The notes beneath the pieces were generated by a model, which saw only the letters and a list, made by a program, of their open reading frames with translations, made no database searches and was not told where the DNA came from. A DNA stretch of 64,000 nucleotides from Oscillatoria princeps RMCB-10 (GTDB lineage: Bacteria; Cyanobacteriota; Cyanobacteriia; Cyanobacteriales; Oscillatoriaceae). The translations under genes were made by a program, and so were the position numbers. Of the stretch, positions 52,396 through 54,192 are shown piece after piece. Where the stretch lies: contig JAHHHT010000029.1 of assembly GCA_019359235.1 (NCBI GenBank), positions 1 through 64,000 of the forward strand, read 5' to 3'. Within the stretch, counting starts at the first letter, position 1. The number at the start of each line of letters is the position of its first letter.

Positions 52396-53295
52396 TCAGT
52401 CCTCTTTGGGGCCAAAAACCATTTGTAGAATCATAGTGGAGCCACCTTTCTGGTGATATCTGTCGGCCCAAGCGCGGATGACTTCATCCAATTCCTCTAG
52501 GGCTTGGTCAAGGCGCTCGGGCGGGATATCGAGCTCCTCCAGGACGCGCATCACTCCAGGCCGGCGCTCCGCCCAGTCCTTCATCAGTCGGAAGTACCGG
52601 GCCGTATCCTCGACCATGATATAGGTGCGCTCTTCTTCGTCGGAAGGCGAGTAAGAAGAGCGGGTGAGCGCGTAGAAAGGCATTCCCCAAGGAGAATCAA
52701 TCCGCGCCACCGTACCGGCATAGATTAAACGCCGCTTGATGTGTTCTGCTAAAGCCTCGCTTAAAGGCATGCGCCGCTCTGGGGGTAAATCTTCCTGAGA
52801 GCGAGCGTGCAGGAATTCTATGAGATCCATCAACTGAAAAGAGTTGATCAGCTGGGCGTCGGGCAGGTTGGGTGGCAGTCTTTGCTCGATCTGGCGCTTT
52901 TCTTCAGACGTCAGACTGGTGCCTGGAATGCGGGGGCGACCTGGCTGCCAGGGATACTGTTCCAGCCAGACATAGGGAAACTGAATCAGATAGCGAGGCT
53001 CCTGAGAGCCCAGCATTTTCAAGAGTTTGCCTTGTGTCAGCGCCTCTTGGACTTCCTCTACAATCGCCTTAACCCGCTTGGGTTCAATGTGATGCAGGTG
53101 CCCCGTCATCCGCAGGTTTCGATCCTGCTCCTGATAGGTCTGATAAATGGCACATTTAGCAGCTGTCGCTGCTGCATCTAGAAATGCTCCGTGCCGGTGC
53201 CCACTGGTTCTCATGGCACTGAAGGCAAGATAAAACATGATCTGATCCATTGCACTGGGGCTAAGGCGTTTGATCAGATCTAAGTCGTTTGTCAT
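52396..53295 (-). CDS. hetR: HetR, master regulator of heterocyst and filament pattern
   Basis: 299 residues, the standard HetR length, from ATG 53295 (the frame extends to 53331 but the family start is [11 protein letters not shown]). A DNA-binding dimer with helix-turn-helix, flap and hood domains. Residues shown important in Anabaena are present: C48 (AAKCAIY), S152, S179 and R223 ([10 protein letters not shown]), and the region around [20 protein letters not shown] is intact. HetR activates differentiation genes and is inhibited by RGSGR peptides from PatS or PatX binding the hood. AGGGATTGTG gives the ribosome-binding site. An RGSGR-containing gene lies 672 bp upstream on the same strand. 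A palindrome 27 bp before the ATG may be its operator. HetR also occurs in filaments that make no heterocysts. Confidence 0.97.
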
Positions 53296-53967
53296 CACAA
53301 TCCCTAAGATGGTTACATCGGGAGGAGTCACAGACTCCTCTGTTGATTGTTGCGCATGATGGTTGCGACATAACCTAATTCGGTAATGCCGGTTTTGGCT
53401 GGTGAGTCAGCAGCCCTCCTCAGATGCGCCCATCCCTAGGAAGGGACTGGGGCTGAGGTTAATTCATGTAGCTTGCCACCCATCAAAATGACTTGACGGC
53501 GGGGGTTCCAGCTTGTTCAGGACTGAGAAAACACTTACGAGAGTGCAAATAAATGTCTCAGTAAGAACACAGATCGCAGACCGGCGGTACTCTATCAAGG
53601 AGCCGCTGCGCTGCGACAAGCTTGCGAAAGCCCTGACGGTTCCCGCGCAAGCGCTTGCCAAACGCCCTGCCTTCAAGCATGGGGTTGCTGACATGTACCT
53701 CAAAGCCTTCAACCATTTAATTATAAAAAAACCCAAAGACCCATACAGCTGTTTGTGGCTTAGATCACCACAAAAACGGGCGCTGCTCCTAAAGGAGCCG
53801 CTGCGAATCACGAAACTCGCACAACAGTCAACCCTCAGCACAGCTTCCGTTTAGGCCAGCTGTGCCAGTGGGCCTCTCCCGCGAGCTGCTGCTCTGGGCA
53901 GCAGCCAAAATGCGCCAGTTGCCAGCAGCCGGCACCACCCCTGCCACTACTCTAGCGGTGGCAAGAC
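53296..53967. other. Long hetR leader between patX and hetR
   Basis: 672 bp. Contains the palindrome at 53322-53340 and two GGAGCCGCTGCG repeats (about 53600 and 53794). The ORFs on each strand (53464-53841, 53513-53854) overlap one another and lack ribosome-binding sites, so are not called. A long leader is also known for hetR of Anabaena. Confidence 0.6.
53322..53340. promoter_or_regulatory. hetR: Perfect palindrome before hetR, possible HetR-type operator or leader hairpin
   Basis: GAGGAGTC-ACA-GACTCCTC, 8-bp perfect arms, ending 27 bp upstream of the hetR ATG. The published HetR-binding inverted repeat GAGGGGTCTAACCCCTC shares GAGG.GT and CCTC ends. It could equally act as an RNA hairpin in the leader. 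Confidence 0.55.
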
Positions 53968-54192
53968 TCATCTGGCAGAACTCGCAACTTGAGAGCTGGA
54001 ATCGTTGGGCGTCTGGCACTCCTCAAGCCGTCCACTGCCCCGATGATCGTCGCAATCTGGTTTTTCTTGCGCTAACTCCGGGAAAGTGGTGGGTGGAAGC
54101 AACTCAGTTGAATCGGACCGCATCCTTTGGGAAGCAACCGCCAGCCCAACGAACAGGAAACTTGATAAGACGATAACCGCCTGAGTCCGCAT
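53968..54192 (-). CDS. patX: PatX-type RGSGR peptide precursor
   Basis: 74 residues. N-terminal MRTQ, hydrophobic core AVIVLSSFLFVGLAVAS with an AVA-S type cleavage site, then a linker with CDDHRGSGRLEEC; RGSGR is residues 51-55 (bases 54028-54042). HRGSGR after an acidic stretch matches PatX, an inhibitory-peptide precursor described alongside HetR in filamentous cyanobacteria. The motif is followed by 19 residues (LEECQTPNDSSSQVASSAR), unlike PatS, where it is at the very end. Two Cys (47 and 59) flank the motif and could form a disulfide in the exported form. It is on the same strand as hetR, 672 bp upstream. A 9-bp palindrome is directly upstream of the ATG. No strong ribosome-binding site apart from AAAGGAAA in the palindrome loop. 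Confidence 0.88.
   Translation of the reverse strand: MRTQAVIVLSSFLFVGLAVASQRMRSDSTELLPPTTFPELAQEKPDCDDHRGSGRLEECQTPNDSSSQVASSAR

Follow-up and report, generated by a model that had tools for sequence, protein, structure and literature searches.

The genome of Oscillatoria princeps RMCB-10 contains seven RGSGR copies in three PatX genes and one HetR. One of the PatX genes is linked to hetR, one is a further single-copy gene, and one, which does not lie near hetR, encodes five HRGSGR copies in one chain. Most probably (about 0.75) they belong to a HetR mechanism in which exported PatX would give rise to HRGSGR and HRGSGR would inhibit HetR, in a host without nifH. The hetR-linked pair was found in the window, i.e. 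the whole stretch of DNA that was analysed (64,000 nucleotides, contig JAHHHT010000029.1), and is an ordinary member of the known HetR–PatX type, as this type has already been published. The features of the window and the two other PatX genes are as follows:

52396..53331, minus strand: hetR, intact; 311 aa from GTG, 299 aa from the ATG at 53295
53968..54192, minus strand: patX, hetR-linked single-copy precursor; ATG start, 74 aa, NCBIfam NF047413.1
54016..54054, minus strand: Cys47 to Cys59 bracket, CDDHRGSGRLEEC, enclosing HRGSGR; possible disulfide loop
54028..54045, minus strand: HRGSGR hexapeptide, residues 50-55, read from the translation
54127..54192, minus strand: hydrophobic signal-like N-terminus, about residues 1-22, assigned by eye on the translation
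54201..54227, minus strand: inverted repeat CGTATCAGA-N9-TCTGATACG in the patX leader, after the DIF1-like box and before the ATG
54245..54250, minus strand: DIF1-like box, TCCTGA at -58 relative to the patX ATG, a pattern match
L112:1501-2199 = C36:199480-200178: multi-copy PatX precursor, 232 aa, five HRGSGR
L114:1501-1686 = C34:199316: third PatX, single copy, 61 aa from the second in-frame start

The HetR protein matches NCBIfam NF009718 with 591 bits (cut-off 489) over model positions 1-299; the model is 299 aa long, the same as the product of the ATG start. It is composed of the Peptidase_S48 and HetR_C domains (PF03574, PF18460), the S48 and hood parts, and has relatives among PDB chains (4hri, 3qod, 4ynl). 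The LEELD segment of the hood at residues 252-256 (299-aa numbering), which we take to be the PatS contact region, is kept in the aligned PDB chains. An in-frame GTG lies 12 codons ahead of the usual HetR ATG (53296-53331), so that hetR has two candidate starts; at this place GTG is also present in L002 and L003 and TTG in L005, and no start is seen in L004. The nearest named relatives by HetR are Oscillatoria sp. PCC 10802 (97%) and Oscillatoria sp. Prado101 (96%). A single hetR was found in the whole genome (8.49 Mb, 60 contigs, 99.5% complete). No nifH passes the cut-off of 394 bits in this 99.5% complete genome; the best match (219 bits) is ChlL and was discarded. The host genome therefore lacks the nitrogenase gene expected of a nitrogen-fixing heterocyst system.

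The preliminary description had reported a 74-aa ORF with a signal-like start and DHRGSGR at residues 49-55, located upstream of a complete hetR on the same strand, and had named the two proteins HetR and PatX. The translation agrees with this, the gap to the hetR GTG is 636 bp, and the naming is borne out by the HetR score given above and by 33.5 bits of the ORF against the PatX model NF047413.1 (cut-off 30). The protein begins MRTQAVIVLSSFLFVGLAVAS, an N-terminus judged by eye to be signal-like, and carries the RG[ST]GR pattern at residues 51-55 within D49-H50-R51-G52-S53-G54-R55. It is unlike PatS, a peptide of 13-17 aa with the motif at its C-terminal end, as it is 74 aa long and continues for 19 aa after the motif. 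Tails of PatX proteins are expected to be disordered. An FAD-dependent oxidoreductase gene (54310-56118, PF12831) adjoins patX on the same strand, and its end aligns in L002-L005.

Orthologues of the window patX (L002/L141, L003/L129, L130, L132-L134) align with it in start, signal, motif and leader. Conservation in near relatives, whose absence had been named beforehand as a refutation, was found: the ORF is kept in 7 of the 8 genomes of the host's family, with its start, motif and promoter box, and the RGSGR frame upstream of hetR is lost only in the MAG M7585 (L004), where patX is decayed and has neither start codon nor motif. M7585 contains a PatX-like ORF without RGSGR (L138) and retains a two-copy PatX (L120). 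The proposed coding-ratio check came out likewise: in frame, dN/dS of the window patX is 0.54 against PCC 10802 and 0.17 against Prado101, compared with 0.79-3.2 in the two wrong frames, the values being based on few changes, and noisy because dS between close relatives is low. For single-copy patX genes the dN/dS evidence is only moderate: the ratio is 0.17-0.55 within the genus, and a pair from a different genus gives 1.03.

The link to hetR is also seen outside the family. A synteny check of the kind suggested earlier covered 80 hetR loci of other genomes with flanks of unequal length. In 48 of them the 3 kb upstream of hetR contain a same-strand RG[ST]GR ORF no longer than 200 aa; the opposite strand upstream has such an ORF in 2/80, and the same strand has one downstream of hetR in 0/80. 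Where the upstream flank measures 1 kb or more, 47/72 loci have the linked ORF. The 25/72 in which no upstream same-strand RG[ST]GR ORF was found include, by name, the heterocyst formers Nostoc, Tolypothrix and Calothrix, whose PatX may be located elsewhere in the genome. Two same-strand PatX ORFs precede hetR at the loci L027 and L047 of Oscillatoriales MAGs.

According to a rule reportedly given in a 2018 paper, patX is preceded by a DIF1 motif at a distance of no more than about 69 nt. The box of the window patX, TCCTGA at -58, is a variant of the canonical TCCGGA. When the 110 nt before the ATG of 125 distinct patX ORFs were searched for TCC[GTA]GA, 108 of 115 matches fell at -64 to -57. 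Between -66 and -55, TCCTGA is the commonest form (61/125), followed by TCCGGA (42) and TCCAGA (6); TCCNGA is absent from this interval in 16/125. The box ahead of the patX ORFs is the DIF1 box. In Anabaena, DIF1 promoters including that of patX depend on HetZ, according to the accessible part of PMC7377430.

The inverted repeat of the window leader is identical in L002 and L003 and partly kept in L004 and L005, and inverted repeats of other sequence precede some other patX genes. Repeats with arms of at least 7 nt occur in 22/125 patX leaders (17.6%, a figure inflated by related sequences) vs 2.2% of single-base shuffles. Cysteines close to the motif on both sides were found in 10 of 132 PatX peptides, the window PatX included; in 500 shuffles the mean was 0.73 and the maximum 4. 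Nine of these ten peptides are hetR-linked and one is of the third type (that of the C34 gene), and they represent few independent events, because all fall in two families. Judging from the sequence, Cys47 and Cys59 may possibly close a periplasmic disulfide loop.

A search of the genome with the PatX model gave three places, namely the window, C36:199480 and C34:199316. It replaced a codon-degenerate RG[ST]GR pattern that gave 631 genome-wide matches vs 1087 for the reversed pattern and is uninformative, because its W and S letters admit other codons. The C36 protein has a signal-like start followed by five HRGSGR spaced 35, 35, 35 and 54 residues apart, and the gene contains a tandem array of a 105-bp unit (3.6 copies, 86% alike). 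It resembles PatX in all three respects considered: the match to the model (71.8 bits over five stretches), the signal-like start and a DIF1-like box, here TCCAGA at -62 instead of the canonical TCCGGA. The C34 protein ends with DDNRGSGRCEQ; the motif of this third type is NRGSGR in the host and HRGSGR in PCC 10802 (L136). The hetR–patX pair had been regarded as a compact signalling module. The pair itself stands, and the notion of a closed two-gene module does not, as there are three PatX genes and the one richest in peptide copies lies elsewhere.

The multi-copy precursor was found in 8/8 examined genomes of the host's family with 2-6 motif copies: 5 in the host, 6 in PCC 10802, 6 in Prado101, 3 in each of G051, G053, G054 and G055, and 2 in M7585. 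Each of these genomes has a single HetR. The third PatX type, grouped by eye on leader and N-terminus, is present in 7/8; none was found in Prado101 (66% complete). When the C36 protein was used as a query against 50 named genomes, six gave matches: four are multi-copy genes of the host's family (G001-G004), the fifth is a single-copy PatX of Kamptonema (L121), and the sixth (L122) has many stops and was judged a chance match.

In another family (f32) all ten genomes have one HetR and, 589-1024 nt ahead of a fixed early point of hetR, an RGSGR frame on the same strand. A signal-like start is seen in seven of these frames and is not evident in L236, L238 and L242. Multi-copy PatX genes with 3, 3, 3, 4 and 4 intact copies were found in 5/10, on contigs other than that of hetR (the genomes are drafts); further copies are degenerate in some of them, e.g. 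L174-L177. A search of 41 named genomes with the L174 protein gave two matches, a single-copy PatX (L223) and a 1098-aa frame judged to be a chance match. The preliminary description had called the small ORF one that automatic annotation easily overlooks. This does not apply to the window copy, which passes the PatX model, and applies to relatives: the PCC 10802 orthologue scores 27.6 bits, under the cut-off, and in f32 the model finds one place in 5/10 genomes, and this is always the multi-copy gene, although the linked frame is present in all ten.

With a two-copy PatX in one genome of family f2 (L201), multi-copy PatX was found in three families in all, and perhaps the precursor was gained separately in at least two of them. 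In all 14 multi-copy genes a DIF1-like box precedes the start by 59-63 nt; these genes come from selected loci, partly picked for long frames, so that 14/125 is not a frequency. The PatX model matches at least 178 of 388 genomes order-wide, where frames were examined at the best 30 loci, in 39 chosen stretches and in the host's family; more cases are possible, and frames above 120 aa in G258, G277 and G395 were left out. In the class-wide search 34/388 genomes match, and the matches listed contain no frame above 132 aa besides the C36 gene; frames of G504 (112 aa) and G071 (103 aa) were left out of the examination. An apparent second, degenerate motif is seen in PatX ORFs of L034, L038, L078 and L185, a sequence pattern suggesting repeated gain and loss of copies.

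Pairwise comparisons of the multi-copy genes from the three closest species give no non-synonymous and 1-6 synonymous changes over 25-30 aligned motif codons, and the spacers show 35.5-69 non-synonymous changes with dN/dS of 0.40-0.85. If the motifs changed as fast as the spacers, 4.1, 7.7 and 8.2 non-synonymous changes would be expected in them, and the Poisson chance of observing none is 0.016, 0.0005 and 0.0003 in the three comparisons, which are not independent. Gene conversion between repeats, rather than selection, could keep the repeats alike. Among 161 motif copies 158 are RGSGR and 3 are RGTGR, a count that cannot show other letters because the ORFs were gathered by RG[ST]GR. The residue ahead of the pentapeptide may be H, S, N, Q, G, E or A. 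RG[STA]GR is absent in six of the 39 chosen order-wide stretches, which have RGEGR (L178, L180, L181), RGGGR (L179, L187) or PGDGR (L190) at the motif place. These six relatives have a PatX-like start, five of them are alike, and all lie outside the host's family; therefore PatX paralogues with other pentapeptides exist there. Perhaps they are decoys, carry another signal or are decaying.

The pathway would proceed as follows. A DIF1-type promoter would drive patX, and by analogy with Nostoc the signal sequence would direct export of the PatX protein, from which a PatP-type peptidase in the periplasm would cut HRGSGR. The peptide would pass to neighbouring cells, enter the cytoplasm and, again as in Nostoc, bind the hood domain of HetR and stop its DNA binding. 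The peptide dose would be split over the window single-copy, the C34 single-copy and the unlinked C36 multi-copy genes, and the C36 chain would release up to five peptides, if each repeat is released. What is controlled would not be nitrogen-fixing heterocysts but the breakage of filaments or some other cell fate. PatX of Nostoc is exported and cleaved by PatP, and HRGTGR binds HetR with a Kd of 88 nM, whereupon DNA binding is lost; necridia are proposed as a HetR–PatX outcome in the same source (PMC12756182, accessible in part). By analogy HRGSGR should act on HetR in the host as HRGTGR does in Nostoc. We give even odds to the more specific proposal that a polyprotein-like HetR morphogen precursor with 2-6 RGSGR and the hetR-linked PatX feed one receptor, and that in a subset, the window gene included, the peptide lies in a possible Cys loop that would add a further level of control over how it is freed or how stable it is.

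It is unlikely that PatX, as a real secreted precursor, signals to a target other than HetR and that its linkage to hetR is historical. A point for it comes from the non-heterocystous Leptolyngbya BL0902, where, in the excerpts of PMC11298460, transcriptomes of patX and hetR mutants are at odds with PatX acting through HetR: the double mutant is like the patX mutant and unlike the hetR mutant as regards gene groups 2 and 3. The distance of the multi-copy gene from hetR and the RGEGR, RGGGR or PGDGR of some PatX relatives in another family would fit as well. The single HetR in 8/8 and 10/10 genomes of two families, the RGSGR frame upstream of hetR in 7/8 and 10/10 of them and the predominance of RGSGR (158 of 161 copies against 3 RGTGR, though in ORFs gathered by RG[ST]GR) argue for HetR as the target.

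Repeat expansion is to be considered for the multi-copy gene: its product may be a secreted protein that owes its repeats to slippage, as a by-product, and releases one peptide or none. The similarity of the 105-bp units (86% over 3.6 copies), the repeat numbers of 5, 6 and 6 within one genus and the degenerate copies in f32 (L174-L177) agree with it. We nevertheless consider this explanation rather improbable in view of the motif codons (0 non-synonymous, 1-6 synonymous changes, with spacer dN/dS of 0.40-0.85), the occurrence in three families, the same promoter box in 14/14 genes and the variable residue before the pentapeptide. Finally, it is hardly conceivable that the window ORF is a chance open frame. 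It is short, its dN/dS is noisy owing to low dS among close relatives, and one relative (L004) has lost the gene, but the curated PatX model is passed, the start, motif and promoter box are kept in 7/8 family genomes, and the strand and position controls give 2/80 and 0/80 vs 48/80.

The HetR–PatX system is considered to be older than heterocysts. Seven RGSGR in three genes with one HetR and no nifH suggest that the signal is in strong use in this host. The natural forms with 1, 2, 3, 4, 5 and 6 copies are a ready dose series for relating copy number to inhibitor strength and range in an activator-inhibitor system, and the cysteine bracket offers a simple mutational test of peptide release. 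The PCC 10802 genome had, we assume, already been sequenced by 2018. For this reason Elhai and Khudyakov 2018 (Mol Microbiol 110:931) may report a multi-copy gene; that paper lay outside the search, and in the accessible parts of the sources covered no published mention of a multi-copy PatX or of the Cys bracket was found. PatX is said to occur in all HetR-containing cyanobacteria (PMC7761841, accessible in part). The survey in the available part of PMC12756182 counts 237 homologues of HetR and 159 of PatX across 474 genomes and finds HetR without PatX in 12% of genomes; these counts misfit a strict co-occurrence, and small ORFs may have been missed there.

The model NF047413 is the NCBIfam "heterocyst-inhibiting protein PatX". 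Like PatX of Nostoc/Anabaena PCC 7120, the window PatX has a signal-like N-terminus, one RG[ST]GR, a DIF1-type promoter and co-occurrence with HetR; unlike it, the window protein has HRGSGR (not HRGTGR) and a Cys bracket, and its host lacks nifH and has two more PatX genes, one of which carries the motif five times. HetN is a larger protein. In Nostoc both PatS and HetN contain RGSGR and act as inhibitors of HetR (PMC7761841), PatS being 13-17 aa long (PMC9284123; both sources accessible in part); neither PatS nor HetN with its internal motif fits the window ORF or those of C36 and C34. In Leptolyngbya BL0902, as in the window, patX is located just upstream of hetR and has a predicted DIF1 promoter (PMC11298460, in part); the window differs by its 636-bp gap and the three PatX genes of its genome, and its two genes are paired by position. 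Multi-copy peptide precursors are familiar from yeast alpha-factor, animal neuropeptides and cyanobactins. The multi-copy PatX resembles them in carrying tandem copies of a short signal between variable spacers, with no homology implied, and differs from precursors of the alpha-factor type in that the target which its peptide would inhibit is a master regulator inside the cells of a bacterial filament.
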